Of a stretch of 64,000 nucleotides of DNA, positions 8,152 to 64,000 are shown one piece after another. The notes below the pieces were generated by a model that was not told where the DNA came from, did no database searches, and saw only the letters and a list, made by a program, of their open reading frames with translations. Positions within the stretch are counted from its first letter, which is position 1, and the number at the start of each line of letters is the position of its first letter. Source of the DNA: a virus; the IMG/VR virus record IMGVR_UViG_3300025770_000870, positions 124,001-188,000 of that record. One strand, given 5' to 3'. A program made the translations under genes and the position numbers.

Positions 8152-9219
8152 ATGATTAAGAAGTTTAATCAATTTCTAGAAAATAAAAATTCTAGTTACC
8201 TTCTTTACTATGCGTTTGATTGGGATGATAATATATTAAATATGCCAACCGTAATACACCTAGATAAAAAAGATGGTGACTCTTGGGTACCTATTAATGT
8301 TTCAACATCTGATTTCGCTGATGTCAGAAATGATGAGAATTATAGAATGTTGAATAATGATCCTGATGAGGCTTTCTCTGAGTTTAGAGATGGCGGTCCT
8401 CGAGGGGTTGAAGCCTTTTTGATTGATACTAAAGCAGCTATTGCTAGTAACAGTTATGGTCCGGCTTGGGATGATTTTATTGAATGTTTGACAAATGGGT
8501 CAATATTTGCTATAATCACCGCTAGGGGTCACGAACCAGAGGCTATAAGATTAGGTATTGATTGGATACTTGATAATGTTCTAACCGAAGACGAAGTATA
8601 TGATATGTATAATAACTTATTAAAGTTTGAGTATATGTTTGATAGAGTTGAAGGTGAGAAAATATTAAAAGGTGATCCATCTAAGAATGAATTGGTTAAG
8701 AAGTATTTAGATCAATGTGATTTAGTTGGTGTTTCGGCTCCTTCTAGAGGTGGTTCTCCTGAGAATCCGGAAAAGGAAAAGGAAAACGCTCTTATGGATT
8801 ACAAGACTAAGATTAATGACTTTGCTAAAAACCTAGGTATGGAAGCAAAAGTTGGTTTTTCTGATGATGATTTAGGTAATGTTAAACATATTGAAGATTT
8901 AGTTGATAGTTTACATCACGAAAAATTCCCTAATATTGTTGAGTTTGTAGTTAAAAATACAAAAAACCCAGAAGATGTTACCAAAAAAGTTAGAACAATG
9001 AATCTAATAGAGGGTAATGATACCCCAGGTATGGAATCATCTGTTTTAGCATTCACTCAATTTAATAATATGACAAATAAACTGTATCCAACGGATGATA
9101 AAACAAGACAAGATGACTTTGCTAACCAATTCAGAAGACAATCTGAATATCTAGCTAAAACTTCTAAAGACATCTTAGGGAAAAAGAAAGTAAAGAAGAA
9201 ATTTCCTAAAAAGAAATAA
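8152..9219 (+). CDS. HAD-superfamily protein with capsid-targeting-like N-terminus
   Basis: This 355-residue protein carries the haloacid-dehalogenase signature: AFDWDDNIL (nucleophile Asp23, acid/base Asp25), IITARGHE (motif II, near 122-128) and GFSDDDLGN (motif III-IV, near 240). HAD enzymes are mostly phosphatases; the substrate cannot be told. Residues 1-10 (MIKKFNQFLE) match the recurring N-terminal tag of this genome, so the protein may be packaged in the capsid. The C-terminus is Lys-rich (KKKVKKKFPKKK). It follows the acidic protein gene and ends at a hairpin. Confidence 0.8.
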   Translation: MIKKFNQFLENKNSSYLLYYAFDWDDNILNMPTVIHLDKKDGDSWVPINVSTSDFADVRNDENYRMLNNDPDEAFSEFRDGGPRGVEAFLIDTKAAIASNSYGPAWDDFIECLTNGSIFAIITARGHEPEAIRLGIDWILDNVLTEDEVYDMYNNLLKFEYMFDRVEGEKILKGDPSKNELVKKYLDQCDLVGVSAPSRGGSPENPEKEKENALMDYKTKINDFAKNLGMEAKVGFSDDDLGNVKHIEDLVDSLHHEKFPNIVEFVVKNTKNPEDVTKKVRTMNLIEGNDTPGMESSVLAFTQFNNMTNKLYPTDDKTRQDDFANQFRRQSEYLAKTSKDILGKKKVKKKFPKKK

Positions 9220-9226
9220 AAAATTA

Positions 9227-9253
9227 AAAGTCCTCTTAATGAGGATTTTTTTT
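9227..9253. terminator. Hairpin terminator between converging genes
   Basis: TCCTC and GAGGA form a short stem around TTAAT, flanked by A residues on the left and eight T residues on the right. It overlaps the last codons of the minus-strand gene at 9236. Confidence 0.6.
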
Positions 9254-9472
9254 ATGCTTTATAATTTCATCTATTTTAATATCTCTTAATATAGCTTTTT
9301 GATTTTCATTAAACCAACGTTTATAATCGTGATTATAAGCCATATGAACACCATCAATAATTGGACCAGCCTGTCCAAACATAAACTCAGTAAAGCTTTT
9401 ACGCCAATCATCAGGTATATCATCGAATGATACGGGCTCTGTATTTAAATACATCTCCATTAATTTAATCAT
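9236..9472 (-). CDS. Hypothetical protein, 78 residues
   Basis: This small protein begins MIKLMEMYLNTEPVSFDDIP and contains WRKSFTEFMFGQAG followed by a tyrosine- and tryptophan-containing stretch and a basic end (KHKKNPH). I recognise no family. Its ATG is 47 nt from the divergently transcribed primase gene. Codon use and composition match neighbouring genes, and the frame is complete, so it is likely real. Confidence 0.6.
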   Translation of the reverse strand: MIKLMEMYLNTEPVSFDDIPDDWRKSFTEFMFGQAGPIIDGVHMAYNHDYKRWFNENQKAILRDIKIDEIIKHKKNPH

Positions 9473-9519
9473 GTAACAAATATAATAAACTTAACTCTAT
9501 TTTCCTAATATATCATGTA

Positions 9520-10716
9520 ATGGATAAGGGATATATAAAAAATATGATACAGAAGATTCTTGATAAAGAGTTTTCTCATAAACAGAAGCGTCGTCTTAAT
9601 GATTATCACGATAGACTTAACATGGCTTGTCCTTATTGTGGTGATAGTCACCGTCACAAACATTCTAAGAGAGGCAATCTCTATTTCAATAGATTATTCT
9701 ATATTTGCTTCAACTGTGATAAGAAGACTACCTTAGACAAGATGTGTAGGGATTTCAATGAGCAAATTGATCCAGGTAAGAAATTAGAAATGATTGAGCA
9801 CTTAGATAGTGTCATGACTTATAATGATTACGAAAATGAGTTTGTAGATGCTCAATTTGATAATCTAATTGATATGGAAGATCTTGAAGCAGCTTTCGCT
9901 TCTGATATAACTCCCATAAATGACTTCCAACCTATTAAGGTTAATGGTGGTATTTATAAGTACCTTATTGGTAGAGGAATAGGTCCCGAATTACATAAAA
10001 ATATTTATCAAGCAAAGTATCACAAAAACGAAAACGAAAGTGAGTGGATAATAGCTATGTTAAATAGAAGAGGTGATAAGATAATTGGAATGCAAGTCAG
10101 AAACCTTAAAGGTGGTAGACGAAGAATGTTCAAGATATACAATTATGAGAATCTATTAGAGTGGGTTAATCATGGTAAAGAAGAGCCTCTTAATATAGAT
10201 ATGGGTGAGATGGTTATTTATAATAAATTATCATACTATTTTAATATATTGAATGTTAACTTCGAAAAAAGAATAACCGTATTTGAGGGTTATTTAGATT
10301 CTTTATTCTATCCAAATTCAATAGGTTTGGTTGGTGTAAATACTGATTATAGATTTTTGGAGAATAATGGATTTGATATACAATATTTCTTTGATAATGA
10401 TGAAGCTGGTTTTAATAAGTCAGAAGAAAAAATGAATGATGGGTTTTCTGTCTTCTTGTGGAGAAAATTATTAAACGATATAGTTGATAAAAAGAATTCG
10501 ACAGATCCATATAAGCTATTCCATAGAATAGTTAAGGTCAAAGATATAAATAAATTGGCTGAGTTAGTACCAAATCCCTATAAGGCTCTTAAATTACCTG
10601 ATTATTTTAGCACAGATGTTCTTGATGTTAAATGGATACCTAAAATGAATAAAGGTAAGTGGGTAGAAAGAGAAACTGATTATAACAAGAAATTTGATAA
10701 TTTTAATAGATTATGA
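9520..10716 (+). CDS. 61: DNA primase (gp61-like, zinc ribbon plus TOPRIM)
   Basis: This 398-residue protein should synthesise RNA primers for lagging-strand replication, working with a replicative helicase not found in this window. An N-terminal zinc ribbon is visible as Cys37-x2-Cys40 (ACPYCGD) and Cys63-x2-Cys66 (CFNC). The catalytic TOPRIM core is marked by Glu256 in VFEGYLDS and the DxD pair at 292-294 in FFDNDEAG. Length is near T4 gp61. A TAATATAT box stands a few bases before the ATG. Degraded homing-endonuclease sequence follows. Confidence 0.88.
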   Translation: MDKGYIKNMIQKILDKEFSHKQKRRLNDYHDRLNMACPYCGDSHRHKHSKRGNLYFNRLFYICFNCDKKTTLDKMCRDFNEQIDPGKKLEMIEHLDSVMTYNDYENEFVDAQFDNLIDMEDLEAAFASDITPINDFQPIKVNGGIYKYLIGRGIGPELHKNIYQAKYHKNENESEWIIAMLNRRGDKIIGMQVRNLKGGRRRMFKIYNYENLLEWVNHGKEEPLNIDMGEMVIYNKLSYYFNILNVNFEKRITVFEGYLDSLFYPNSIGLVGVNTDYRFLENNGFDIQYFFDNDEAGFNKSEEKMNDGFSVFLWRKLLNDIVDKKNSTDPYKLFHRIVKVKDINKLAELVPNPYKALKLPDYFSTDVLDVKWIPKMNKGKWVERETDYNKKFDNFNRL

Positions 10717-10760
10717 ATTGGCATGGTGTGTGTTAATACAGGTAGTTGAGTTATTTATAT

Positions 10761-11026
10761 ATGATAAAAGATGAATTGATACAAATAAAAATATCCAATA
10801 AAACACTCTCATATTATTTGAATATTAAAGAGAGGTATCATCAACATTAATACAAGATGGATCTGGTATTTTAATAACAGGAATATGTGATTTTTGTGGG
10901 AATGAAAAGTTAATAAGTAAGAAAAAATATAACACACAAACCAAGTTTTCTAAGTTGGGATTCTCCTGTTCCAAACCAAACAGAACATTCTATAATGAAC
11001 GAAAGGGGTTATTATCGGATATTTGA
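10761..11026 (+). pseudogene. Broken homing-endonuclease-like gene (N-terminal domain)
   Basis: A short frame beginning MIKDELIQIKISNKTLSYYL stops at 10850. A second frame downstream reads LITGICDFCGNEKLISKKKY and then FSCSK before stopping at 11026. Together they resemble the N-terminal region of phage homing endonucleases, with its I-x-V/I start and CDxCG zinc-binding motif, but the reading frame is interrupted at least once and no nuclease domain remains. A TTATTTATATATG box precedes it. This explains most of the gene-poor stretch 10717-11065. The family call rests on remembered sequence style, not on a search. Confidence 0.55.
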
Positions 11027-11065
11027 TTGTGGGTCTAAAAAGTGGATTAGGAAATTTAAATATCT

Positions 11066-11539
11066 TTAGATAATTATATTACCTTTATTTATATACTTTT
11101 TATTTTTAGTAAAAAGAAATGACTTAAATTCTTTATTTCCTCTTTCTGCATTACAATCTTTACAACAAACAACTAGATTTACTTGACAATTATTACCACC
11201 TTCTGATATGGGTACTATATGATCCGCCGTAGCGTTTTCATAACTTAACTTTTCTTCACAATATAAACAAAGGCTACCTTTGTTTTTATTTATGAAATCT
11301 TTAGCGAATCCGCTAGTTCTTCTTTTAACATTTTTACCGCTATATTTTAGTCCGACCACAACAAAGTCTTTCATATATTTGAATTTTTTCCTATATATCT
11401 CACAAGATTTATAGTTCTTATTTACAATGACTACCAACTTTATTAAAAATTTCCATCTGTTGTATGTTTTCTTTTCTACTGAGAGAAAATGTGGGTGTTC
11501 CGATTTTACTAGGAATTTTATTACTTTTATTACTTTCAT
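11066..11539 (-). CDS. HNH endonuclease
   Basis: This 157-residue protein carries a complete HNH nuclease motif in its C-terminal half: Cys91-x2-Cys94 (CLYCEE), the metal-binding ADHIVPISEGG (His107) and CCKDCN (Cys125-Cys129). The N-terminal 80 residues are basic and probably contact DNA. Solitary HNH genes in T4-like phages are usually homing endonucleases that spread into or beside core genes. It lies beside the wrecked homing-endonuclease sequence at 10761 and downstream of primase, which fits that behaviour. No intron is visible around it. Confidence 0.8.
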   Translation of the reverse strand: MKVIKVIKFLVKSEHPHFLSVEKKTYNRWKFLIKLVVIVNKNYKSCEIYRKKFKYMKDFVVVGLKYSGKNVKRRTSGFAKDFINKNKGSLCLYCEEKLSYENATADHIVPISEGGNNCQVNLVVCCKDCNAERGNKEFKSFLFTKNKKYINKGNIII

Positions 11540-11579
11540 ATTTTATCAATTTATATATTGAATTTTCTCATTTTCCTCG

Positions 11580-11590
11580 TTTAATATATA
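11580..11590 (+). promoter_or_regulatory. Late-type promoter box
   Basis: TTTAATATATA lies 20 nt before the ATG at 11611, followed by an A-rich leader. It matches the recurring box. Confidence 0.6.
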
Positions 11591-11610
11591 CCTAAAATAA
11601 AATAACCACT

Positions 11611-11922
11611 ATGCGTAAATTTAAATTACCAAAAACTTTCTTTGGATGGTCTAACATTAAATGGGCTATTAAAGAGCTTACAAATGTTTATTCAACAAAC
11701 AAATCTTTCTTTTCTAAGAAAAGACTAGAATCTGGAATGGCTTTTTTAGTTGGTCAATTCGGGATGGTGTATTTCATGATACAAAATCATTCTACAATGA
11801 CTGCATCTGACTTAGCTATCTGGGCTGGGATAGAGTTTGCTATATCTGGGTATATGGTTACTCAAATACAGAAAGAAAAGAAAAAGGGTGATCCGGAAGG
11901 AAGTCACGAAGAACAAGTTTAA
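11611..11922 (+). CDS. Small two-helix membrane protein, possible holin
   Basis: This 103-residue protein has a basic N-terminal segment (to about residue 42), two hydrophobic segments near 46-63 (AFLVGQFGMVYFMI) and 70-86 (LAIWAGIEFAISGYMV), and a charged C-terminal tail (QIQKEKKKGDPEGSHEEQV). Size and two-helix layout are compatible with a class II holin, but there is no family motif and no lysis gene next to it. It is a monocistronic unit with its own promoter box and terminator. A structural membrane protein is an alternative. Confidence 0.65.
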   Translation: MRKFKLPKTFFGWSNIKWAIKELTNVYSTNKSFFSKKRLESGMAFLVGQFGMVYFMIQNHSTMTASDLAIWAGIEFAISGYMVTQIQKEKKKGDPEGSHEEQV

Positions 11923-11928
11923 AAACAA

Positions 11929-11955
11929 AAAAGACCATCAATTTGATGGTCTTTT
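11929..11955. terminator. Bidirectional hairpin terminator
   Basis: AAAAGACCATCA pairs with TGATGGTCTTTT around a very short loop, giving a near-perfect stem with T-runs on both strands. It sits between converging genes at 11922 and 11975. Confidence 0.88.
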
Positions 11956-11974
11956 TTTGTATCTATTATTTTAA

Positions 11975-12472
11975 TTACTTAAATTTTCTAGTATTCTTAT
12001 AACTTTTAGATTCACCTACTTTCATAGCATATCTTTCATCCTCATCCATTTCATCAAATTCTTTATCAGCTAATTTGTTTGATTCACCTTCTATAAAAGT
12101 AACAACTTCATCCGCCGTTTTGAATTTTTTATTACCAACGTGAAACATCTCTGTTTCTGATGGGAAAATTATCTTTTGTCCATTATATTCTACTTTACCA
12201 TTAGTAACCTCTGATCCTAATTTATCAGCAACTTCTTGTAGTTTATTTGCATAAACATCTCCACCTTCTTCTTCCATTTCTTCTTCCATTTCTTCAGATT
12301 CTAAATCTTCAATGGGAGCTTCTTTAACGTCAGATTCTAAATCTTTGAATTCATGTTCTAAGTCACGAATAGCTAATTCATGTTCTTGTTGGTTTGTATC
12401 AAACTCTTCTTCTGATTCAAACTCTTCGTTTACTCTTTCGTTAACAAATTGATTATATTTTTTAATCATCAC
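11975..12472 (-). CDS. Acidic protein with capsid-targeting-like N-terminus
   Basis: This 165-residue protein begins MMIKKYNQFVNERVNEEFES, matching the recurring tag and followed by VNE, a plausible maturation-protease site. Residues 20-80 are extremely acidic (repeats of EEMEEE) and probably coiled or disordered. Residues 85-140 (VADKLGSEVTNGKVEYNGQK) look like a small folded domain. No enzyme motif is seen. By analogy with T4 internal proteins it may be head cargo; this is inference from the tag. A TTTTAATATATATA box lies about 30 nt upstream. Confidence 0.7.
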   Translation of the reverse strand: MMIKKYNQFVNERVNEEFESEEEFDTNQQEHELAIRDLEHEFKDLESDVKEAPIEDLESEEMEEEMEEEGGDVYANKLQEVADKLGSEVTNGKVEYNGQKIIFPSETEMFHVGNKKFKTADEVVTFIEGESNKLADKEFDEMDEDERYAMKVGESKSYKNTRKFK

Positions 12473-12509
12473 TATTACTTATTTTTTGTTGTGTTTATAT
12501 ATATTAAAA

Positions 12510-13019
12510 TTAATTATCAGAATTTTTCAATTCACTTATAACATAATCAACAAAACTATCTAACTCATATTCTAATCCATTACAAAATTCGAATATGTCA
12601 TAATTATCTTGATTCTTTCTCTTTTTTATTGAGAAAAAATCAGGTGATGTTGTTCCATTACTAAATAAAACTATTTTTCCCTCTAACCTACCTTCTATTT
12701 TCTTCTTACTAGGAAATTCTAAATCAGGAACATACATTGTCCCAATATAGTGTATTTCATCACCATAATCTTCTATTTCTTCTAATTCAAATTTGAAATA
12801 TCCATAATCATCTTCGAAAACTCTTTCACTTTCTTCTTTCACTATCTCCTTATGAACTTCTTCTTCACCACCAGAAGCGTGAGCGTCCAAAAAATCTTTC
12901 TCCAGCTTGGTTATAGAAGGCATACCATATTTAGATATTTTATCTAAAATATCATCTACCCTTTCTTTGGTAGTATAACCTTCATATCTCATTAAGTGTT
13001 TCATATTGTTATTAAACAT
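12510..13019 (-). CDS. Hypothetical protein with tag-like start and DUF6576-like motif
   Basis: This protein has 169 residues from the ATG at 13019, or 164 from the ATG at 13004. The second start gives MKHLMRYEGYTTKE, like the recurring tag. The first lies 5 nt after an AAATATATA box, the spacing seen before many other starts. Residues 20-50 (ILDKISKYGMPSITKLEK) resemble a small helical motif common in Bacteroidota proteins and found again in the gene at 51588. The rest is acidic with a beta-rich C-terminal half. Function unknown. Confidence 0.65.
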   Translation of the reverse strand: MFNNNMKHLMRYEGYTTKERVDDILDKISKYGMPSITKLEKDFLDAHASGGEEEVHKEIVKEESERVFEDDYGYFKFELEEIEDYGDEIHYIGTMYVPDLEFPSKKKIEGRLEGKIVLFSNGTTSPDFFSIKKRKNQDNYDIFEFCNGLEYELDSFVDYVISELKNSDN

Positions 13020-13024
13020 TAAGG

Positions 13025-13033
13025 TATATATTT
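13025..13033 (-). promoter_or_regulatory. Promoter box with 5-nt spacing to start
   Basis: The minus strand reads AAATATATA, ending 5 nt before the ATG at 13019. A start at 13019 would therefore be leaderless or nearly so. Confidence 0.45.
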
Positions 13034-13054
13034 CATATTGAATTCCCTTTTTTA

Positions 13055-13447
13055 TCAGTAAAACTTATGTGTTGGTGTTTTACCTAACCCACTATCAACA
13101 AGGTTTCTGTTGTGGTTACCAACTAACCAAGGTTTTCCTATCTTTTTATGTATATTTTCCTTTATTGCTTTATATACTATTTCTAAATCCCCGTCTGTCT
13201 GATATATACAAATATAATTGTTGTTTACAATATCGATATCAAAATCAATAACTTCTTCATCTGATAGTATATTATCTATCTTAGACCCTCTATCGTACTT
13301 TTTAACCTCACTTACCCAATTCTCAACGAAGTAGAATATAAATCCACCAGATCCGTCCTTAGGATGCTCTTGAGCCATTTTTAGGTCTATACCATCATAG
13401 TATTTAACATTAATATCGTCTATTTTTTCCTCAGAAATTAATATCAT
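13055..13447 (-). CDS. Hypothetical protein, 130 residues
   Basis: This protein begins MILISEEKIDDINVKYYDG and contains acidic and aromatic stretches (GGFIFYFVENWVSEVKKY, YICIYQTDGDLEIVYKAI), consistent with a small alpha/beta fold. I recognise no family. Its start overlaps the end of the upstream gene at 13431 by 17 nt, so the two are probably translated from one message. It belongs to a run of small minus-strand genes between 11.9 and 13.7 kb. Confidence 0.6.
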   Translation of the reverse strand: MILISEEKIDDINVKYYDGIDLKMAQEHPKDGSGGFIFYFVENWVSEVKKYDRGSKIDNILSDEEVIDFDIDIVNNNYICIYQTDGDLEIVYKAIKENIHKKIGKPWLVGNHNRNLVDSGLGKTPTHKFY

Positions 13448-13664
13448 CGAATATATCGTCTATTTTTTTATCCCTTGTTTCGGATTTATGTAATCCTATT
13501 ATATTTTTATGGAAAAGTTCATCGGTTTCAAATTTTAGTTTGAAACTATCAAATGATGATCGTGACATTCTCAATAAAGAATACTCACCTCTTGATATTT
13601 TAGACTCTAAAATCCTGGTATCCAAGTAAGTTATATATTCTAGGTATAATTCCTCGTTTTTCAT
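13431..13664 (-). CDS. Hypothetical protein, 77 residues
   Basis: This small, charged, mostly helical protein begins MKNEELYLEYITYLDTRILE and includes LLRMSRSSFDSFKLKFE. It is the first gene of a two-gene unit with 13055, overlapping it by 17 nt. A TATATA-rich 32-nt gap separates it from the divergent gene at 13697, so the same AT-only DNA may hold back-to-back promoters. No family was recognised. Confidence 0.55.
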   Translation of the reverse strand: MKNEELYLEYITYLDTRILESKISRGEYSLLRMSRSSFDSFKLKFETDELFHKNIIGLHKSETRDKKIDDIFDDINF

Positions 13665-13680
13665 AAATTATATATCTATA

Positions 13681-13691
13681 TTTAATATATA
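13681..13691 (+). promoter_or_regulatory. Promoter box with 5-nt spacing to start
   Basis: TTTAATATATA ends 5 nt before the ATG at 13697. This is one of the clearest cases where the recurring box sits too close to the start codon for an ordinary leader. The same short gap also serves the divergent gene starting at 13664. Confidence 0.6.
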
Positions 13692-13696
13692 CCCAT

Positions 13697-14455
13697 ATGC
13701 TAAATTATAAAGAGTATTTAAAGGAGGCCCAAGATAATCAAGTCGTTGTGTTGGATGATGGACAAGGTGGTAATATGTTTAAGACTGTTAAAAATGGTAG
13801 TAAGAACTCAATTACTTATCTTAATGCTGTTATAAAAAGGTTTATCGAAAGTGTTTATGGATCATCTGGGTTTGTTTATGGTAAACATACTGATATATTT
13901 ATCGATAATAAGATAATTAATGGTGAGTATATATCAAAGATGGTTAATAATTACACCATTTTTAAAAATGTGATAAGAATTAATAATATTAAAGAGGAAG
14001 AATCTTTTTATAATTTTATGTTATCTAATCTGAATAATATTTATTCACCAAATGGTAAATTCTTTTTAGAACAATCATTACCTATTTTAATAAACACAAC
14101 TAGAAGGGGAAATGTACTTGAAAAAATGGCTAAGGAATCCTTTTTAAAGTATTCTAAAGAAAAAGATATCGAGATTACTATACAAAACCCTTCTGTTGAT
14201 GAAGATATAAACGGTGTTGATTTCAAATTCTTATCCAATGGTAGAAGTTTTACTGTTCAAGTAAAGCCATTTACTGATTATAAGTATATTGGTGATAAAA
14301 TTTTCATAAAGACAGAAGGATCTTTATCATTGAATACAAACTACTTGATACTATGTGATGGTAAGAATTGTATTAAATTAAGAAATACACCCTCTAATCC
14401 AGTTAAAATAAAAGGTAATACTTTTATTTCAAGTAAATCTAATCTACTTATTTAA
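13697..14455 (+). CDS. PD-(D/E)XK-like nuclease with capsid-targeting-like N-terminus
   Basis: This 252-residue protein begins MLNYKEYLKEAQ, strikingly like the T4 internal-protein leader MKTYQEFIAEA, with LKE followed by Ala where the T4 head protease would cut. In the C-terminal half, Glu142 (NVLEKMA), Asp175 in DINGVDFKF and Lys190 in TVQVKPF are arranged as in PD-(D/E)XK nucleases (E, D, QxK). This suggests a DNA-cutting enzyme carried in the head and injected, perhaps to attack host DNA or defence plasmids. The nuclease call is from motif spacing only; a non-catalytic relative is possible. The 3' end overlaps the converging polymerase gene by 8 nt. Confidence 0.65.
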   Translation: MLNYKEYLKEAQDNQVVVLDDGQGGNMFKTVKNGSKNSITYLNAVIKRFIESVYGSSGFVYGKHTDIFIDNKIINGEYISKMVNNYTIFKNVIRINNIKEEESFYNFMLSNLNNIYSPNGKFFLEQSLPILINTTRRGNVLEKMAKESFLKYSKEKDIEITIQNPSVDEDINGVDFKFLSNGRSFTVQVKPFTDYKYIGDKIFIKTEGSLSLNTNYLILCDGKNCIKLRNTPSNPVKIKGNTFISSKSNLLI

Positions 14456-15770
14456 ATCCACCGAATATATCCATTACCACACTCAATCTTCTTGTTATTT
14501 CTGGCATACCTAATGGTTCAATAATAGAATTAATTGGTGATAGTATTGATTTCTCAAATTGTATATCATAATCTATCTCAGGAGCAAATTCAATCGGGTA
14601 AGACCCTCTAGCATAAGCAAATGTGGAATTAACTGATTTATCTTTACAGATATAATATTTAATCTTTGTACCAGATTTCATAAATTCATACTTATCTTGT
14701 AATTTCTTATCATTGTTCAATAAGTAATTATGATAAGCGGCCGCTTTAACAGCAAAGTGAGCTCCACTTATAAATTGTAATGGTAATGTTTTATCATTTA
14801 AAACTTTCTCATCATATTTATTACAAGATGATTGCATTGCGATATCATCAACATCAGCCAATTCAAATTCCTTTCTAAGACCTTTTACCAATTTAAGTAA
14901 ATCCTTTATATTGAATGTATCGGGATTCTCAAATAAATACTCTACTATCCCAACAATCTTATCACGAGCAAAGGCTGGTGTGGATGACCTAACAAGTTCA
15001 ACTCCTTTAGGATAAATATATTTCAATCTATCATATGGAATACCATCCTCATATAAAATATGTTGTATGTATTTTTTCTTAGCAATATTTATAATTGATT
15101 CTGATATTCTTTCAAGTTCAAAATCTTCTTTGTTTTCAACACCATATGATTCTGCGTGTTTATCTAAACAATCTTTGAAGTAACCCTCATATTTTATTTG
15201 GTCAACTCCTAATATAAAATCAACCTCAGTAGACCAGTTCCAGATAATATCATTTGTTAAAACTCCATCATCTATCATCTTATTTAACTTCCTATCTTTC
15301 ACGAAGTTACCATCTATTAAAACTAACCCATAATCTTCTTTCAGAAGTTCTGTAAATTCCGTGATATCTTTTGACATACCCAAATAATTTGGATTATCTG
15401 TTTCTATCAAATCTCTTGATAGTATAATAAATTTCTTATCAATTGAAGATAGATATTCATCGTTAAATACTTGATCTCTCCAAGTACAATGGTCCATACA
15501 AGGTTTGAATGAAACAAAAATTGAATCGGTATCACCATAGATACTAACATCCTCTTTCGTATCAATTGGTGTGATATCTTTTATATTTAATTGTTTGTGT
15601 AGCTCAGTATCAAGATGCCATTGATTATACCAATAATCTTGGTTATCATCATCCATCTTTCTAGTCAATTCTCTACCCTCTGCTGTTATAGTACCTGCAA
15701 CGTGGTTGTTATAAAGTATGAAGTATGGTGTTGCGAAGGCTCCATAAGAACCATTCAATACAAGTTTTAG
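14448..15770 (-). CDS. 43: DNA polymerase gp43, C-terminal part (motifs B and C)
   Basis: This is the C-terminal portion of a family B replicative polymerase. Downstream of a TGA at 15773-15771 the frame reads LKLVLNGSYGAF, which is motif B, and contains YGDTDSIFV (motif C, the metal-binding palm Asp pair) about 75 residues later, then the thumb region. Coding from motif B to the stop is 436-440 residues. The exonuclease and N-terminal domains are not upstream and do not occur anywhere in the window, so gene 43 is split. No ATG stands near motif B; a TTG at 15758 would lose the motif B lysine. The piece just before motif B is encoded at 15805-15909 across a 37-nt hairpin gap. Confidence 0.88.
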   Translation of the reverse strand, partial: LKLVLNGSYGAFATPYFILYNNHVAGTITAEGRELTRKMDDDNQDYWYNQWHLDTELHKQLNIKDITPIDTKEDVSIYGDTDSIFVSFKPCMDHCTWRDQVFNDEYLSSIDKKFIILSRDLIETDNPNYLGMSKDITEFTELLKEDYGLVLIDGNFVKDRKLNKMIDDGVLTNDIIWNWSTEVDFILGVDQIKYEGYFKDCLDKHAESYGVENKEDFELERISESIINIAKKKYIQHILYEDGIPYDRLKYIYPKGVELVRSSTPAFARDKIVGIVEYLFENPDTFNIKDLLKLVKGLRKEFELADVDDIAMQSSCNKYDEKVLNDKTLPLQFISGAHFAVKAAAYHNYLLNNDKKLQDKYEFMKSGTKIKYYICKDKSVNSTFAYARGSYPIEFAPEIDYDIQFEKSILSPINSIIEPLGMPEITRRLSVVMDIFGGFK

Positions 15771-15807
15771 TCATTTACCCCCACTTAAAATAAAGCGGGG
15801 GTGATTA
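15771..15807 (-). other. 37-nt hairpin gap interrupting the polymerase frame (bypass-like element)
   Basis: On the minus strand the polymerase-like frame ends QLAL with codon CTT followed at once by TAA. After 37 nt it resumes after TGA at codon CTA, then AAA-CTT-GTA, giving K-L-V-L-N-G of motif B. The gap holds a 10-bp stem, ACCCCCGCTT with AAGTGGGGGT (one G-U pair), and a 6-nt loop at 15777-15802. A stop right after the take-off codon, a hairpin, and a synonymous leucine codon at the landing site are the layout of the T4 gene 60 bypass. A simple disabling insertion or a terminator hairpin in a truly split gene are the alternatives. Confidence 0.5.
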
Positions 15808-15909
15808 AAGAGCGAGTTGAAGGGCATTGTAGTAATCTACTTCCTTTTTCAACTCGCTCGCTTTAATTTTTAATGACTCGATTTTTTTTATTTTTTCGGT
15901 TTTTGTCAT
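15805..15909 (-). CDS. 43: 34-residue polymerase fingers fragment preceding motif B
   Basis: The ATG at 15909 opens a 34-codon frame, MTKTEKIKKIESLKIKASEL followed by KKEVDYYNALQLAL and TAA. The charged helix followed by YYNALQLAL is what normally precedes motif B in family B polymerases (the residue run before K-x3-N-S-x-Y-G). A TTTATTTATATAT stretch lies about 40 nt upstream, so this could be a new start for the C-terminal polymerase polypeptide. Joined to the downstream frame it would restore an unbroken ALQLALKLVLNGSYGAF. On its own it would be a useless stub. The link is inferred from sequence continuity. Confidence 0.55.
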   Translation of the reverse strand: MTKTEKIKKIESLKIKASELKKEVDYYNALQLAL

Positions 15910-15974
15910 ATTTAATAAATTTGTTATAAAGGGTACTTATACATTTTGATATATAAATAAACCTCTTAAAGTAT

Positions 15975-16061
15975 ATGATAAAGGAAGAAAAAGTTTCAGT
16001 AAAAATCGGACCACGTAACATAAAATATTTTAATATGTGTGGATATGATGTTACACTTTAG
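15975..16061 (+). pseudogene. Remnant of homing-endonuclease N-terminus
   Basis: A 28-codon frame, MIKEEKVSVKIGPRNIKYFN then MCGYDVTL and a stop, resembles the first residues of the phage homing-endonuclease family also seen broken at 10761 (I/V-x-V-K-I, N-I-x-Y-F/Y). Nothing recognisable continues it on this strand. It points away from the polymerase gene. The assignment rests on style of sequence and is tentative. Confidence 0.45.
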
Positions 16062-16111
16062 TCAGGCGCAATTTGGTCAGATAACAGAACTATACGCCTA
16101 TATGGTATTTG

Positions 16112-16433: not shown

Positions 16434-16465
16434 TATTTGATTAATCAGATATATTATATTTTAAA

Positions 16466-16476
16466 TTTAATATATA
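16466..16476 (+). promoter_or_regulatory. Late-type promoter box
   Basis: TTTAATATATA lies 19 nt before the ATG at 16496, followed by an A-rich leader (ATAAAAATAACAGTATCAA). Confidence 0.6.
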
Positions 16477-16495
16477 ATAAAAATAACAGTATCAA

Positions 16496-16879: not shown

Positions 16880-16904
16880 TATGAATCGAATTTAGTTGGA
16901 TTCA

Positions 16905-54701: not shown

Positions 54702-56834
54702 ATGGCTAAGGAACAAGTACAGAGACAAATGATATTCACAACCATTCTGGTTGATGATGCTACTGATAAAATAAATGATGGTGTTGTTGTTAAGAGATAC
54801 CAGAACCCTTGGCTAAAAAGTGAAGTTGGTTTAAGAAGAGCTGGTGTTACTTTTAAGATGACTACTACTGAACAACAAGAGTATATTAGATGTGCTTTGG
54901 ATGTTCACTATTTCACTGAAAAATATTGTAAGGTTAAAACAGAGGACGGTAGTGTAGGTAATATAAAACTTCGAGATTATCAAAAAGATATGATGGATAA
55001 TTTTGTTAATAATAGATTTAATATATTAATGGCATCCAGGCAGGTCGGTAAGACTATATCATCCTCTATTTTTATGTTACATACAATTTTATTTAATAAT
55101 GATAAGAATGTGATGATAGTTGCGAATAAAGGTGATACTGCGGTTGAGATTGTTGATAAGATGAAATCTATTTATACTTTATTACCTTTCTTTCTAAAGC
55201 CTGGTATAAAAACCTGGAACCAGAAATCATTAACATTTGAGAATGGGTGTAGGATAAAGACATCTGCTAGAACAAAGACACCTGCGATTGGTTTTACTAT
55301 TGATGTTTTATATCTTGATGAGTTTGCTCATATACCATCCAATATTATAGAACCATACTACACGGCTGTATTTCCAACTGTATCAGCAATTAAGAATTCT
55401 AAGATTATAATAACATCAACACCCAATGGTATGAACTTATTCCATAAATTACTTACTGATGGTGAGAGACCAGATGGTGATCCTAGAAGGAATAACTTTA
55501 AAGCTCATAGGGTTTATTGGTATCAAGTACCGGGTAGGTTTGTTACTTATGTTAGATTGAATGATCATAAATTATATGAACAGGGTATTGATAAGGAATA
55601 TATTTTAAAATTTCTTCAAGAAAACCTTGGTGATATTACTAAAGTTGATATGTCTTATAATATTGATTTACAAAAAAATATTATAAGTGTACTTAATAAT
55701 GATAAATGCTCTGATGATGATATTAGATCATTGATGATAGTAAATTCAAAGGACGAGGAGATTCCTTTATTTTCTGTTGCTGAGTTAACAACTTGGAAAG
55801 AAGAAGCTATTAAGGATATTGGTGGAGAAGATGCTTTTAACCAAGAGTACGGTTTGAGATTTATCAATGCTAGTAAATCTCTATTAAATGAGTCTATTAT
55901 AGATGATTTATTAAAGTCTAAGAAAAATTATATTCATGAGGAAATTTCAGAATTTGAAAAACTTAGATTTAGTTATAATGAATTAAGATGGGTTGATGAT
56001 GATGTTTACCTACCATTAATGAGAAAGGATTATAAAATTGTATTATCTGTGGATATCGCCGAGGGTTTAGGACAAGATTATTCAATAATAAATATATTCA
56101 GAGTTAATAATAAGACAAAGGAAGTCATAGATAACCAAAAGGCAGCATATACATCAATTGTTGATTTCTTTAAATTAGAACAAATAGGTATATATAGGAG
56201 TAATTTAGTATCTGTTAAGCAATTGGCTGAGATTTTATATCTTATTGCCTTTGAGTATTTTAATCCAGATAATGTTAAAGTTGTTTTAGAATTAAATAAT
56301 TATGGCAATACATTATTAGCTGAGCTACCACATGTTTTTGAGGGTAATAATGATTATGGTTCTTCTATTTTTGTTAGATATAAACATAGAGCTGATGCTA
56401 ACGAAGAGAAGGTTGGGTTAAAAGTTGGAGAAAATAAAAATTTATTGGTTAAGGATTATCAAGACTTAATGATATCTAAGGGATTCTCAATTAATAATGA
56501 GGAAACAATTAGAGAGATAACAACCTTTGTTAAACACACAACAACTGCTGGTAATACCAGATATGCTGCTGATGTAGGTCATGATGATTGCGTTATGACT
56601 ATTGTTAACTCAACATCTATATTTAAAAAGAGTGAATTTCGTGAAATGGTTGAGGAATGGTCGAGTAAATTTACAGATAGAGATCTTATGTCTTATATAA
56701 ATGGGTGCTTGAAAAACTTTGATTATGTTGAGGGTGTGGATTATGGACAAGTACTAAAGGTTAGAAGAAATTTCCAAAATCGTAATAAGAATACTGGATT
56801 AGATAATAACATTGGTACTTGGTTTGGTCAATAA
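54702..56834 (+). CDS. 17: Terminase large subunit (gp17-like)
   Basis: This 710-residue motor packages DNA into the head and cuts concatemers. The ATPase domain shows Walker A ASRQVGKT (111-118), Walker B VLYLDEFAH (202-210) and TSTPNG (coupling motif, about 239-244). The RNase H-like nuclease domain shows LSVDIAEGLGQDYS (Asp451), LELNNYGN and VGHDDCVM. A stretch of about 70 residues near 285-360 between the two domains is extra compared with T4 gp17 (610 residues). The gene is monocistronic, with a TATATATA box about 20 nt before the start. Confidence 0.95.
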   Translation: MAKEQVQRQMIFTTILVDDATDKINDGVVVKRYQNPWLKSEVGLRRAGVTFKMTTTEQQEYIRCALDVHYFTEKYCKVKTEDGSVGNIKLRDYQKDMMDNFVNNRFNILMASRQVGKTISSSIFMLHTILFNNDKNVMIVANKGDTAVEIVDKMKSIYTLLPFFLKPGIKTWNQKSLTFENGCRIKTSARTKTPAIGFTIDVLYLDEFAHIPSNIIEPYYTAVFPTVSAIKNSKIIITSTPNGMNLFHKLLTDGERPDGDPRRNNFKAHRVYWYQVPGRFVTYVRLNDHKLYEQGIDKEYILKFLQENLGDITKVDMSYNIDLQKNIISVLNNDKCSDDDIRSLMIVNSKDEEIPLFSVAELTTWKEEAIKDIGGEDAFNQEYGLRFINASKSLLNESIIDDLLKSKKNYIHEEISEFEKLRFSYNELRWVDDDVYLPLMRKDYKIVLSVDIAEGLGQDYSIINIFRVNNKTKEVIDNQKAAYTSIVDFFKLEQIGIYRSNLVSVKQLAEILYLIAFEYFNPDNVKVVLELNNYGNTLLAELPHVFEGNNDYGSSIFVRYKHRADANEEKVGLKVGENKNLLVKDYQDLMISKGFSINNEETIREITTFVKHTTTAGNTRYAADVGHDDCVMTIVNSTSIFKKSEFREMVEEWSSKFTDRDLMSYINGCLKNFDYVEGVDYGQVLKVRRNFQNRNKNTGLDNNIGTWFGQ

Positions 56835-58766: not shown

Positions 58767-59360
58767 ATGAAGCATATTAGAACGTATGAAAAATATCGTA
58801 TTGTAAAGAACAGATCTGAAATTATCAAAGAAGCTGTTCTACAAGTTAATGATATTTATAAAGTAAAGACAATGATTGATATTCCTCAATCTTTGATTAA
58901 CTCTTATGTTAAGAAAGTTAAAGAAACTACTGGTAAGAACCTAAGACAATTTTTTGGTGATGTTGACATCGCTGAGGAAATTGTTAAATATATTAATATG
59001 AACAATCTTGATATAGAGAAGATTCCAGGTGGAGCTTTGATGGGTGGTCAAGAAGAAACACAAGTTCAGCAAGCTCAACCAGAAGCACAACCACAAGCTC
59101 AAATGCAACCTCAGGTTCAACCAGAAGCACAACAAACACAACCACAAGGTGAGTTTGAAGAGCCACAAGCAGATGCTCAAGTACAGGCTCAAGATGGTCA
59201 AGTACAAGTTCAAGCAGATGGTCAAACACAAGTACAAGATGGTCAAGTACAGGCTCAAGATGGTCAAGTACAGGCTCAAGATGGTCAAACACAAGGTCAA
59301 GTACAAGGTCAAGCACAAGACGAAGATGAAGAAGAGGACGAAGAAGAACTTCCACTTTAA
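58767..59360 (+). CDS. Tagged Gln-rich repeat protein
   Basis: This 197-residue protein begins MKHIRTYEKYRIVKNRSE, a copy of the recurring tag. Residues 20-90 form a small helical domain (IPQSLINSYVKKVKETTGKN, VDIAEEIVKYINMNNLDIEK). From about residue 95 the sequence is a disordered Gln/Ala/Pro tail with QAQDGQV repeats, ending in an acidic stretch. The helical part could bind DNA or protein in the head. The repeats vary in copy number at the DNA level. No enzyme motif is seen. Confidence 0.7.
   Translation: MKHIRTYEKYRIVKNRSEIIKEAVLQVNDIYKVKTMIDIPQSLINSYVKKVKETTGKNLRQFFGDVDIAEEIVKYINMNNLDIEKIPGGALMGGQEETQVQQAQPEAQPQAQMQPQVQPEAQQTQPQGEFEEPQADAQVQAQDGQVQVQADGQTQVQDGQVQAQDGQVQAQDGQTQGQVQGQAQDEDEEEDEEELPL
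59172..59317 (+). repeat. Tandem coding repeats encoding Gln-rich units
   Basis: Units of 21 nt containing CAAGATGGTCAAGTACAGG, with degenerate neighbours, repeat several times and encode QDGQVQA. They are in frame and suggest slippage-driven length variation. Confidence 0.8.
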
Positions 59361-59433: not shown

Positions 59434-60048
59434 ATGAGATACCTAAAGGCATATGAGAATTATAATACTGATACAACACTTATAATTGTTGATGTTCAAA
59501 AATCATTTAAGAAATTCTTTTCTGAGATGTACATAAATAAATTAAAAAAGTATTGTAATGAATTTGTCAATGTTTATCAAATCTGGGATAACCATACAGA
59601 TGGTAAAATTGTTGATAAAGACTACTTATATGATAAAAATCCTGAAATTCCAATACATGATGATTTATACCATTTTCCTAACCAAAGTGAGTTAATCGAA
59701 AAGAGATATAATTATGATGTAGATGCTGATTTTTATAAAAAAATTCTAGATAAGGAAGTTTATAAAGAGATTAGTGATAAAGAGGATAATAAACAATTAA
59801 AAAAAGGTGACTTTTTCCGAACAAAAGAGGGAACTATTATAGTTTATATTGGTAATAATCATAAATGGTTCCAAGTTCCTATTAAATTATATAAACATCT
59901 TGTTGAATTAAGGGGTAAGAGTGTTATTATTGTTGGTGGTTCTGATTCTGAATGTTTGGAGGATATTATTACATCTGCTGAAAGTCTTGGTGTTAATATT
60001 AAAAGAGATTATAAGTATATCTACTCAGCAAATCATTGTCCTATCTAA
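59434..60048 (+). CDS. Tagged isochorismatase-like cysteine hydrolase
   Basis: This 204-residue protein begins MRYLKAYENYNTD, a copy of the recurring tag. TLIIVDVQKSF (Asp20) and SVIIVGGSDSECLEDIITSA (probable nucleophile Cys174) followed by LGVNIKRDYKYI match the Asp...Cys layout of the isochorismatase/nicotinamidase superfamily. The middle region with the expected catalytic Lys and metal ligands is atypical (QIWDNHTDGKIVDKDYLYD). If it were a nicotinamidase it would touch the NAD theme of the 18-21 kb operon, but many other substrates are possible. It overlaps the converging gp25 gene by 4 nt. Confidence 0.68.
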   Translation: MRYLKAYENYNTDTTLIIVDVQKSFKKFFSEMYINKLKKYCNEFVNVYQIWDNHTDGKIVDKDYLYDKNPEIPIHDDLYHFPNQSELIEKRYNYDVDADFYKKILDKEVYKEISDKEDNKQLKKGDFFRTKEGTIIVYIGNNHKWFQVPIKLYKHLVELRGKSVIIVGGSDSECLEDIITSAESLGVNIKRDYKYIYSANHCPI

Positions 60049-60454: not shown

Positions 60455-61024
60455 ATGAAATATCTGAAATTTTTTGAATCTTATAGAGGAACTGTATCTG
60501 TTAATAGAGATATTTTTATAAAGGTTTTATCTGATTATAGTAGTATATATGATGATGGTTTGGTTACACAATTAGAGGAATTGGGATTTGAGAGTAGTGA
60601 TGTAATTGCTGATATGATAGAAGATTCATTGAATAATGGTGATCGTATAAGTTTAGAGGCTATAACACTTTTAGTTGATGAGATATCAAGAGGTAATTCT
60701 GAGAGGAGCGCAAGTAAGTTACAGGATATTTATAATGAATGTGAATATCATTTAAATAATAGTACTGTTGATGTTATTGATAACTTGAAAGATATATTCT
60801 CTGAATATGTTGATGATAATAAAGCAATGATATATAAAACTGGTGATAAATCTGACAACCGATGTGTCGTTTTACTAAAACAGGTTGATGTTTTGTTAAA
60901 TATCGATTTCGATGAAGTATTAAATAGGGTTAAAGAATTTGTAAACTTAAAACATATGGAATATGTTGGTAGTAAAGACCGAATTAAATTTGAGTTTTAT
61001 GAAAGATATCCTGATGAAGATTAG
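60455..61024 (+). CDS. Tagged helical protein, 189 residues
   Basis: This protein begins MKYLKFFESYRGTVSVNRDI, a copy of the recurring tag. The following 120 residues are helical and acidic (TQLEELGFESSDVIADMIED, SKLQDIYNECEYHLNN), ending in an alpha/beta part (DRIKFEFYERYPDED). No enzyme motif is recognised. It converges with and overlaps the clamp-loader gene by 4 nt. A head-cargo role is suggested by the tag alone. Confidence 0.65.
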   Translation: MKYLKFFESYRGTVSVNRDIFIKVLSDYSSIYDDGLVTQLEELGFESSDVIADMIEDSLNNGDRISLEAITLLVDEISRGNSERSASKLQDIYNECEYHLNNSTVDVIDNLKDIFSEYVDDNKAMIYKTGDKSDNRCVVLLKQVDVLLNIDFDEVLNRVKEFVNLKHMEYVGSKDRIKFEFYERYPDED

Positions 61025-61980
61025 TTCAATATATCTCTTAACTTACCAATTATAGTCATCCCTAAAACAATAGGATCTGTGTTAGTCTCTAATTTTGACG
61101 AATAATCTGATATTATATAATTACACTCGAATAACTTATCAACATTTTTACCTTGTTCCATAGACCATTTTATAAATGGTGTTCCTAATACTTTAATCAT
61201 ACCATCTATTTTCTCAGGACCGAACATATTCATTAAGAAATGATAGATTTTTTCGTAATCCATTGATGTGTCATATATAGTCTTGTATAAATCTAACCTA
61301 ACCTTATTAGAAACATTAGATGATGATGTCGATTCTCCAGTTTTTATGTGTGTTTCAAGATCAACCATTATTTCTCTGAAATCTGGGAACTTCTTATTGA
61401 TAATAGTAACTAAACTTTCCTTTGATATTTCTTCTTCTTCTGTTGGTAATACAGTATTATTAATTCTCTTGTATATTGCTTGTTTTAGAAACTTTTCTTC
61501 TTCTAAATTCTCACAATCGAAGTTTAATCTAGGTATTCTGGATTTAATACCACCATCTATCTTATTTAAGTGATTGGTTGTTATTATAAACCTAACATTT
61601 TTACTATACTTTTCTATAAATGCTTTAAACCCATCTTGAAACTGAGCGGATGTTCTTTCAAACTCATCAAAAAATATATATTTATAATCTGATTCTGTTT
61701 CCATCATAGGTGAAAACTTACAAAAATCATCAATTTCATTTCTAAGTAAATCAATTGATGTCTCGATAGAACTATTTATTTCTAGGAATGGTTTATCCTT
61801 GGTGTATTTACCAATGAGTATTCTAGCTAAGCTGGTTTTGCCAGTTCCATAATTTCCATGAAAAATATAATTTCCATCAATTCCGTTTTCAAAATGCTTT
61901 CTGATTCTAGGTAATAGAATCACATCATCCATAGTCTTTGGACGCCATCTTTCCCATAATAATAATTTTTTTACGCTCAT
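61021..61980 (-). CDS. 44: Clamp loader large subunit (gp44-like)
   Basis: This 319-residue AAA+ ATPase loads the sliding clamp onto primer-template DNA together with gp62. Motifs are Walker A HGNYGTGKTS (41-50), Walker B FFDEFERT (103-110), sensor 1 IITTNH (about 131-136) and GGIKSRIPRL with the arginine finger (about 141-150). The length matches T4 gp44 (319). The DEFE box replaces the more usual DEAD/DECD form. The matching clamp is at 22010, so T4's 45-44-62 cluster is broken up here. No gp62 was recognised. Confidence 0.92.
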   Translation of the reverse strand: MSVKKLLLWERWRPKTMDDVILLPRIRKHFENGIDGNYIFHGNYGTGKTSLARILIGKYTKDKPFLEINSSIETSIDLLRNEIDDFCKFSPMMETESDYKYIFFDEFERTSAQFQDGFKAFIEKYSKNVRFIITTNHLNKIDGGIKSRIPRLNFDCENLEEEKFLKQAIYKRINNTVLPTEEEEISKESLVTIINKKFPDFREIMVDLETHIKTGESTSSSNVSNKVRLDLYKTIYDTSMDYEKIYHFLMNMFGPEKIDGMIKVLGTPFIKWSMEQGKNVDKLFECNYIISDYSSKLETNTDPIVLGMTIIGKLRDILN

Positions 61981-62042: not shown

Positions 62043-63086
62043 ATGATAGGTGAAAGATTTAATATGGAGGATGTTTTCTTCCGAGATTTAACAGTTTGTG
62101 TTCTTGATACCTTAGAAGGTCAAGTTAATTGGGTTAATAGATTTTCTTCTGGGGATGTTTATGTAAAAGTACCTTTTTATTACTCATTGACGGGTGATGA
62201 GAGGTTTTTATTGGATACATTTCAGGATGATGTGGTTTCTGAAAATAGATTTGTTGAATTAAACACCGATATTATACCAAGGGGTCACATAACAATGACT
62301 GGATTTAATATTAATTCTGATGAATTCTCCAATCCTAATGTTTGGTTGAGAATGGTTGTCGAGAATGAGGTTGAGATAAGAAAGATTTTAGCTAAAGTTA
62401 GAGCAGTTCCTATTACTGTTAGTTATGATTTGGAAATATTACTTTCTAGTGAAGTAGATACGTTCAAGTGTAGTCAGGCAATAATGGATACTTTATGGTT
62501 ATATAAATTTATGTATTTTGAGCATAACTTTATGAATATAGATGCTGTTATATTAATGCCAGATGGTAATTCAATAGAAATGGCACGTGAAAAAAATATG
62601 TCTTCTGATAATAATATTAAGATGAAGGTCTCATTTGAGGTACAAACATATTATCCAGCTTTTAGAAAAGATAGATATAATGGTGTGGGTTATCCTAGGA
62701 ATTATGGTGATGGTATGACTGATTTAAATGGTCATACAATAGTAGATGGGTTTTCGGAGGGATTTGGTACTGATAACCCATCGAATTCTCCTGGACCGTT
62801 CGCGCCCGGAGGTGGTACTAATAACGTACCGAATTCTCCTTATGATTATATTGGTGGTCTAGATCCTAATATTAATACTGGTACTACACCATATGGTGCT
62901 ACTGGTAATTATACATACATTCAAAATCCTAATGGTTCCGGTGATCCTGATTATTATATCACACCTAAAAGAACTAGATGGTTTAATAATATACTAAGAG
63001 CTAGACAAAAATCTAGTATACCAATAAATAACCCAAATTCACAAGATCCTAATAATGGATCATCAGGAAATCCTTACACTCCGTAA
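62043..63086 (+). CDS. 15: gp15-like tail terminator/completion protein
   Basis: From the ATG at 62043 this protein has 347 residues. An in-frame ATG at 62001 precedes the promoter box and is less likely. Residues 1-210 follow the T4 gp15 pattern: FFRDLTVCVL near the start, GDVYVKVPFYYSLTGDERFL, TDIIPRGHITMTGFN, VPITVSYDLEILLSSEVDTF and MKVSFEVQTYYPAF. The last 125 residues are a Gly/Asn/Pro-rich disordered tail, longer than in T4. gp15 caps the tail tube and sheath and contacts the neck. The call is from pattern order and would need structural comparison to be sure. Confidence 0.6.
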   Translation: MIGERFNMEDVFFRDLTVCVLDTLEGQVNWVNRFSSGDVYVKVPFYYSLTGDERFLLDTFQDDVVSENRFVELNTDIIPRGHITMTGFNINSDEFSNPNVWLRMVVENEVEIRKILAKVRAVPITVSYDLEILLSSEVDTFKCSQAIMDTLWLYKFMYFEHNFMNIDAVILMPDGNSIEMAREKNMSSDNNIKMKVSFEVQTYYPAFRKDRYNGVGYPRNYGDGMTDLNGHTIVDGFSEGFGTDNPSNSPGPFAPGGGTNNVPNSPYDYIGGLDPNINTGTTPYGATGNYTYIQNPNGSGDPDYYITPKRTRWFNNILRARQKSSIPINNPNSQDPNNGSSGNPYTP

Positions 63087-63141
63087 ATATTTTACGATCT
63101 GTTAAAGGAATATATAAAAATGGTAAAAAATGACTTTTTAC

Positions 63142-63153
63142 TATTAATATATA
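63142..63153 (+). promoter_or_regulatory. Late-type promoter box
   Basis: TATTAATATATA lies 34 nt before the ATG at 63188, followed by an A-rich leader. Confidence 0.5.
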
Positions 63154-63187
63154 ATAATAAGTAGAAAAAAAAATAATATTTTAAAGT

Positions 63188-64000
63188 ATGAAGAATCTTA
63201 AACTCGAGTTGTTTAACTTCAAGAAAAATCTTTCACTTGATCAAGAAGACGTTGCACTTATTGTAGAGGGGCATATGAATGCTTGTAATGAGCATGCCGA
63301 GAAAGCAATAATTAATTCTCTTAATGAGAAATTAAGATCTTTCACGTATGATAGCGCTGTGAAGGGTCTATTGGAGAGTTTAAACGATGATATGTCAAAT
63401 CACGAACTAATATATGAATTAAAAAGTTTATATAATGTTCTTAATACCCAAAACCAAGGAGAGCTTTATAGACAACCAATTAATGTTCTTTTACAAACAA
63501 TCAATTTAGAATCTGATGAAGATAGAATGTCTAAGGTTTTGAATGAATTAGCTATTTATGACTGGGTTCCAGAAATTAAAGTATTTGTTCATAACTTAAC
63601 AAAGTCTCCGGAGAAAAGAAATAACCTATTGAGTGGTGGTTCTGGTGAGTCAGTATTCACTATTGTTGAATCTGTTGAAGATGGTCACATCGCTTTAATT
63701 AAAGATTCTTGGTTCTTACTTACAGAAAATGTTATTGAAAAAACACTTTTAGAAAACCATGTTAAAAATGAAGAAGACTTAAAAAGTCTTAGAATGATTG
63801 AATCAGCTATGAAATATGCTACTATCAGTGAAGATAGAGTTAATTTCAGAATATCTGAATATCTAACAATTGGTCTTTCTGTTAGTAAAAAAGGTGGTAT
63901 CTTTATTAATGAAGATGAATTAAATGAAGAAACTACATTAGAAAGTCTTTTCTCATCTCCAATTGTTCCTATTGTTAACAAAAACTTTTACCCTATTTTA
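63188..64000 (+). CDS. Partial hypothetical protein, C-terminus beyond the window
   Basis: An ATG at 63188 opens a frame of 271 codons that runs off the right edge. It begins MKNLKLELFNFKKNLSLDQE, a loose relative of the recurring tag, and continues with helical, acidic segments (VEGHMNACNEHAEKAIINSL, LIYELKSLYNVLNTQNQGEL) and a mixed region with SVEDGHIALIKDSWFLLTE. No motif is recognised. The strong promoter box and A-rich leader suggest high expression, as for a virion protein. Confidence 0.7.
   Translation, partial: MKNLKLELFNFKKNLSLDQEDVALIVEGHMNACNEHAEKAIINSLNEKLRSFTYDSAVKGLLESLNDDMSNHELIYELKSLYNVLNTQNQGELYRQPINVLLQTINLESDEDRMSKVLNELAIYDWVPEIKVFVHNLTKSPEKRNNLLSGGSGESVFTIVESVEDGHIALIKDSWFLLTENVIEKTLLENHVKNEEDLKSLRMIESAMKYATISEDRVNFRISEYLTIGLSVSKKGGIFINEDELNEETTLESLFSSPIVPIVNKNFYPIL

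Follow-up and report, generated by a model that had tools for sequence, protein, structure and literature searches.

The stretch of DNA analysed here (the window, 64,000 nucleotides) comprises bases 124001-188000 of the 241,918-base viral record IMGVR_UViG_3300025770_000870 (the 242-kb record), a fragment of a Mahaphage-type huge phage, in which a short N-terminal leader of 10-19 residues is common to proteins with unrelated bodies. The original prediction had assigned about 19 proteins of the window a T4-like capsid-targeting N-terminus. After translation of all of them, the leader proved real at nearly every listed start; the scale had been set too low, as the leader occurs on 16-20% of all genes, and the loosely claimed carrier at 63188(+) was rejected on a negative profile score. 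The proteins of the window that carry the leader (tagged proteins), together with borderline cases, are as follows (window coordinates; lengths in amino acids, aa).

8152-9219 (+): tagged, 355 aa, HAD-like motifs; leader MIKKFNQFLENK, with F5 and F8 invariant in relatives and a variable spacer behind the leader
11975-12469 (-): tagged, 164 aa; MIKKYNQFVNER; start given earlier as 12472, the ATG lying 3 nucleotides downstream of a GTG
12510-13004 (-): tagged, 164 aa, DUF6576 (PF20216); MKHLMRYEGY
13697-14455 (+): tagged, 252 aa; MLNYKEYLKEA
16496-16879 (+): tagged, 127 aa; MRLKKFNSFKINES, below the profile threshold; TTTAATATATA element upstream
22869-23195 (+): tagged, 108 aa; MVKKWNQFIREF
25296-25619 (-): tagged, 107 aa; MIYNFKKFNEE
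26598-26684 (-): tag on a 28-aa open reading frame, possibly a decayed cargo gene; MKYLRKFNES
26681-27253 (-): tagged S-adenosylmethionine (SAM) methyltransferase, 190 aa (Methyltransf_25, 6e-14); MKHLLTRKIFEN
28041-28361 (+): tagged, 106 aa; MNHIKKYESF
38266-39012 (+): borderline leader, score 8.2, below threshold; MKLTKYLEFVQS
39708-40358 (+): tagged, 216 aa; MKHLEKFYNYITES
41710-41868 (+): tagged short protein, 52 aa; MKYIKTFESF
47966-48526 (-): tagged, 186 aa, adjoining the sheath gene; MKYLKKYKLFLEA
48523-51369 (-): 948 aa, leader-like start ending KVVNEA, borderline by profile; 10 cleavage-like motifs
58767-59360 (+): tagged, 197 aa; MKHIRTYEKYRIVKNRSEIIKEA
59434-60048 (+): tagged, 204 aa, isochorismatase-like motifs; residues 1-11 predicted to be disordered
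60455-61024 (+): tagged, 189 aa; MKYLKFFESY

Occurrence of the leader and its carriers

Gene calling in the 242-kb record gave 342 genes, and an anchored nine-position profile (residues 2-10) scored on all their N-termini matched 55 of them, against 0.3 expected from internal-methionine windows and shuffled N-termini, with bimodal scores. Applied without retraining to LR745206 (634,780 bases, complete), the same profile matched 118 of 905 genes and only two of 3006 internal methionines. For the 242-kb record and for LR745206 over its full length, genes were called with a simple codon-usage caller, so the choice of starts is approximate; Shine-Dalgarno sequences are almost lacking and starts are AT-rich. 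LR745206, which ranks among the largest complete huge phages, is the nearest relative in the annotated collection (79% identity across 63% of the first 25 kb), and its source paper places the largest genomes in the Mahaphage clade, with hosts predicted to be Bacteroidetes (PMC7162821).

A second form of the leader, M-I-K-K-[FYW]-x-x-[FY]-[ILV]-x-E (e.g., MIKKFNQFLE and MIKKWSEYITE), brings the totals to 68 of 342 genes in the 242-kb record (20%; null 0.9) and 150 of 905 in LR745206 (17%; null 1.0), and a scan of every ATG in the 242-kb record added ten more starts, mostly start corrections of called genes. Three further huge phages carry lineage-specific versions of the leader, on 63 of 955 genes in LR756501 (735 kb; null 2.2), on 38 of 526 in the 400 kb read of LR756500 (462 kb; null 0.7) and on 42 of 558 in the 400 kb read of LR756504 (636 kb; null 0.7). 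In LR756500, the leaders show the form in full, M-K-Y-I-x-x-Y-x-[ED]-F-[LIV]-x-E-[SA] (MKYIKEYEEF[ILV]NE[SA]), and thereby link the two forms seen in the 242-kb record. Aromatic residues three apart, the spacing of Tyr4 and Phe7 in T4, occur as [FYWH]xx[FYWH] within residues 3-14 in 69% and 65% of the tagged proteins of the 242-kb record and LR745206, against 17% and 15% of the untagged. Viral contigs contained 88 stretches that matched a narrow DNA pattern of the tag, and 257 Gb of bacterial and archaeal genomes contained one.

The 218 tagged proteins of these two phages fall into 145 clusters, so that the claim of unrelated remaining sequences was nearly right, the departures being one paralogous family of 23 members and a few families of 3-7. 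The family of 23 occupies record positions 8780-25156 and several clusters in LR745206, and has a DIKDIFxELxDDG motif after the leader; for one member, relatives were too few for a model. Among the tagged proteins are a methyltransferase, NUDIX, HD and other phosphohydrolases, an acetyltransferase, a lysozyme, an internal-virion-lysozyme match, PPK2, a T4-type RNA ligase, Sa_NUDIX, an Hc1-like protein and a TOPRIM protein. Of the enzyme types that had been proposed as cargo (nuclease, nucleotidyltransferase, HAD, hydrolase, methyltransferase), the methyltransferase stood, HAD is seen by motifs only and the hydrolase by motifs and a weak fold match; some types were not confirmed. The hydrolase is the 59434 protein, whose model (mean pLDDT 81) predicts a folded body behind a disordered leader (residues 1-11) and whose fold search returned weak matches only, several of them to isochorismatase-like hydrolases (E 0.09 to 1.6).

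One tagged protein of LR745206 (448257-449573, minus strand) fuses a 2'-5' RNA ligase (2H phosphodiesterase)/Acb1-like domain to a DEDD exonuclease. The Acb1 assignment comes from a Pfam match below the cutoff (6.7e-5), next to a match of the 2'-5' RNA ligase type (3e-8); a plain phmmer search with T4 57B found no Acb1 homologue, and no solved-structure relative of the fusion was found. The fusion is a candidate anti-CBASS protein. The RNA ligase, the Acb1-like exonuclease fusion and the NUDIX proteins are probable counter-defence enzymes. For injected T4 proteins, an action against defence is established (PMC12373910, PMC9391042).

The leader was not found on the core proteins tested, i.e., clamp loader, terminase, helicase, thymidylate synthase, portal, major capsid protein, sheath and DNA polymerase B pieces, among which the original statement that no core gene has the tag holds. 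Three untagged controls from the window are as follows.

43973-47905 (-): tail sheath, 1310 aa (T4 sheath, 659 aa)
54702-56834 (+): terminase large subunit
61021-61980 (-): clamp loader

Two apparent exceptions in LR745206 were rejected: a tag on a DNA polymerase, where the matching part is the DEDD exonuclease of the Acb1-like fusion, and a tag on a primase, where the match is a 193-aa TOPRIM-only protein. The DNA polymerase B domains themselves are distributed over two genes about 100 kb apart (window 14448-15758, minus strand, and record 234401-235939), and likewise in LR745206, i.e., the polymerase is split. The half in the window has a TTG start and an adjoining in-frame TGA, and the annotation of phage PTm1 describes an intein-containing split polymerase.

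Selection, cleavage-like motifs and the promoter-like element

Among 40 orthologous tagged pairs, the ratio of nonsynonymous to synonymous change (pN/pS) is 0.21 in leader residues 2-12 and 0.39 and 0.40 further into the same proteins, whereas 138 untagged pairs give 0.30, 0.31 and 0.29 for the corresponding stretches. The leader shows no drop in synonymous change (pS 0.69), and its codons follow genome usage. Purifying selection on the leader is about twice that on the rest of the same proteins, and it acts on amino acids, not on nucleotides. The status of the leader is also stable, with 40 orthologue pairs both tagged, 151 with neither tagged and 7 discordant, mostly through start calls or borderline scores; indels occur at the junction directly behind the leader.

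The motif [ILVFM]xE, noted originally in several proteins as (I/L/V)-x-E before a small residue, is present in residues 6-15 of 71% and 76% of tagged proteins against 20% and 21% of untagged ones in the 242-kb record and LR745206, respectively. The stricter [ILVFM]xE[SAG] in residues 6-16 is some ten times commoner in tagged proteins (31% and 41% against 3% and 4%), with no difference at residues 31-50. Cleavage-like sites cluster outside the leader in only a few tagged proteins.

A promoter-like T[TA]ATATATA lies upstream of 60% of tagged and 19% of untagged genes in the 242-kb record (p 8e-11), which was replicated in LR745206 (48% against 14%; p 4e-18), and also precedes the portal, capsid and sheath genes. 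In the 242-kb record, the nearest T[AT]ATATA ends 5-9 nucleotides before the start codon in 26 of the 44 tagged genes with a site; were this a -10 element, transcripts would be very short or leaderless. Outside the window, record positions 1-6200 contain a run of small genes, many with AAACCAAAACAAAG before them, which looks like a separate, perhaps early, expression signal.

A protease fused to leader-like scaffold repeats

A gp21-like protease, expected elsewhere in the genome, is encoded 10 kb past the window (record 198213-200354). Its assignment to S77 is supported by Pfam (E 6e-5), by the PHROG head maturation protease (E 2e-30) and by the aligned His and Ser motifs of T4 gp21; Peptidase_S78 is absent. 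A gp23-like capsid gene follows, and the portal gene lies a few kb before. The protease is fused to a scaffold-like region of about a dozen tandem 14-residue repeats (YSEYIAENLDKNIA; ...AYSEYIAENLDKNI...), with about as many copies of YSEYIAEN, which is nearly the T4 capsid-targeting leader (TYQEFIAEA, in full MKTYQEFIAEA) and can be set beside the cargo leaders KWSEYITES, KYNEFILE and KKYKLFES of the 242-kb phage. As do many leaders, the scaffold region contains KLFES. It holds 2.7 cleavage motifs per 100 aa (mean 0.5), the top density among proteins with at least six sites.

A leader-core profile, trained on N-termini only and then scanned over internal positions, had the protease/scaffold protein as its top internal match in the 242-kb record, LR745206, LR756501 and LR756504 (corrected P 3e-10, 4e-12, 7e-9 and 3e-6 in the four genomes). 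Among relatives from viral contigs, 77 of 80 keep 7-11 of the repeats. LR745206 also encodes a 66-aa protein (460435-460635, minus strand) that opens with scaffold-like repeats (MNYEDYIAESLEKNISYSEYISEN) and may be a duplicated scaffold fragment or a competitor.

Interpretation and comparison with known systems

We consider it very probable that the leader targets proteins to the capsid in the manner of the T4 internal proteins and would thus load cargo for injection; the whole is best read as the capsid-targeting system of T4 enlarged some 20- to 40-fold. The T4-like interpretation of the original prediction is supported above all because the scaffold repeat matches the leader, and further by the S77 protease, the cleavage-like motifs in the leader zone, the purifying selection at the protein level, the promoter-like element of virion genes and the absence from the core enzymes tested. 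We infer docking, cleavage, packaging, injection and cargo function along the following lines. Tagged proteins would be made late, and their leaders would dock on a prohead scaffold whose 14-residue repeats have almost the sequence of the leader. At head maturation, the protease may cut behind the glutamate of [ILVF]-x-E in scaffold and leaders alike, so that the scaffold would be destroyed and the cargo freed inside the head to be injected along with the DNA. Many kinds of protein (about 70 in the 242-kb fragment and 150 in LR745206) could have become cargo, as so short a leader does not depend on the sequence behind it, and several of them have probable counter-defence or metabolic roles, which would be useful at once after infection.

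Several points weigh against capsid targeting. Leaders of class I (MKYLKTFE) are less direct matches to T4 than those of class II, and a clear [ILVFM]xE is absent from 25-30% of leaders. LR756500 has the most T4-like leaders, yet no score could be given to its scaffold repeats, which are too degenerate. In the capsid protein, the position that aligns with the T4 cut is not an E, with an I-N-E earlier, and we infer the late timing of the TATATA element from its position before virion genes. To our knowledge, no tag-bearing phage is in culture.

The match between leader and scaffold repeat also agrees with a different outcome of docking on the prohead core, in which many tagged proteins would belong to the core or serve maturation, and would be degraded or lost instead of being injected as effectors. 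The T4 scaffold is indeed destroyed, and of the proteins encoded next to the sheath gene, two that are tagged or borderline look structural, the 948-aa one having 10 cleavage-like motifs. We nevertheless regard this as unlikely, given that the 145 or so unrelated bodies include many enzyme folds (methyltransferase, NUDIX, RNA ligase, PPK2, HD hydrolase, acetyltransferase) superfluous for assembly and that so few tagged proteins have cleavage-like site clusters behind the leader. A short aromatic and basic N-terminus could also be a general address, e.g., for a replication compartment, a membrane or an infection vesicle, and other jumbo phages do sort proteins to compartments; with the core replication enzymes tested lacking the leader, the prohead scaffold as the internal match of the profile, S77-type cleavage-like sites following the leader and the same core in the T4 capsid-targeting sequence, such a destination is very improbable.

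Common descent, in which diverged paralogues keep only their N-terminus, finds some support in the family of 23 and the several small families; as the bodies differ in fold and length (28 to about 800 aa) and indels fall just behind the leader, we give it hardly any credence. Least credible of all is that the conserved stretch is a translation-start or promoter element at the nucleotide level. The AT-rich starts, the near lack of Shine-Dalgarno sequences and TATATA mostly ending 5-9 nucleotides before the start codon would suit it, but amino acids are conserved where pS is as high as elsewhere, codon choice tracks genome usage and the same peptide occurs at loci of 21-40% G+C; the codon and pN/pS tests largely refute a translation signal.

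Going beyond capsid targeting as such, it seems fairly probable that the largest known phages possess a delivery platform, in which a scaffold of a dozen leader-like docking repeats loads well over 100 different tagged proteins per lineage's virion and any late gene may turn into an injected effector through the gain of some 12 residues. If so, no other virus of bacteria known to us would inject so large a repertoire of proteins. About one sixth of the proteins in the largest known group of phages start with one and the same short tag, which can probably be removed. The role of hundreds of huge-phage genes is not known, and a readable address on 16-20% of them would tell place (the virion) and time (the first moments of infection), would yield a list of candidate counter-defence proteins and suggests one reason for large genomes and heads. 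The tag amounts to a simple rule in the sequence, open to testing and reuse, and the leader-like scaffold repeat suggests a way, likewise testable, in which capsid targeting could work at the molecular level.

The T4 targeting logic is already known: residues 4 and 7 of the capsid-targeting sequence target, residues 8 and 10 serve processing, the sequence has affinity for the core, and the idea that it lets T4-like phages package varied proteins is in the literature (PMC9026906). As far as the literature searched shows, where no description of the leader in huge phages was found, it is new that the leader occurs on this scale and in this taxonomic group, that protease and scaffold are fused and carry leader-like repeats, and that there is evidence of selection. 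In phiKZ and SPN3US, at least 19 and 9 ejection and inner-body proteins are cleaved (PMC10052503), and there, too, a gp21-type prohead protease takes propeptides off many packaged proteins. Those propeptides are mostly long with an S/A/G-x-E-type motif, whereas the leader motif here is [ILVF]xE, and a short leader on dozens of unrelated proteins is not described for these phages. Tenacibaculum phage PTm1 and Prevotella phage Lak-A1 have a related major capsid protein and protease, but their leader counts are at background (2 of 299 and 1 of 395) and the scaffold repeat is absent.

The closest likeness is to the gp21-cut leader of T4 IPI-III (MKTYQEFIAE), which shares the core [FYW]xx[FY][ILV]xE, the N-terminal position, the unrelated bodies, the S77 protease and the scaffold core; T4 IPII and IPIII score 10.7 with the leader profile, the best of the T4 N-termini scored, although the profile was trained without T4. 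The huge phages differ in having about 70-150 carriers where T4 has about four, up to three extra N-terminal residues in their leaders (MKY[LI]K..), and a protease fused to a scaffold with tandem leader-like repeats. Across T-even relatives, the internal protein loci hold at least 10 Ips, of which Ip1-3 inhibit GmrSD (PMC12373910). They resemble the present system in one leader with exchangeable bodies and in injected counter-defence, which is probable in huge phages; here, however, the bodies comprise many kinds of enzyme, scattered over the genomes of Bacteroidota-type huge phages.

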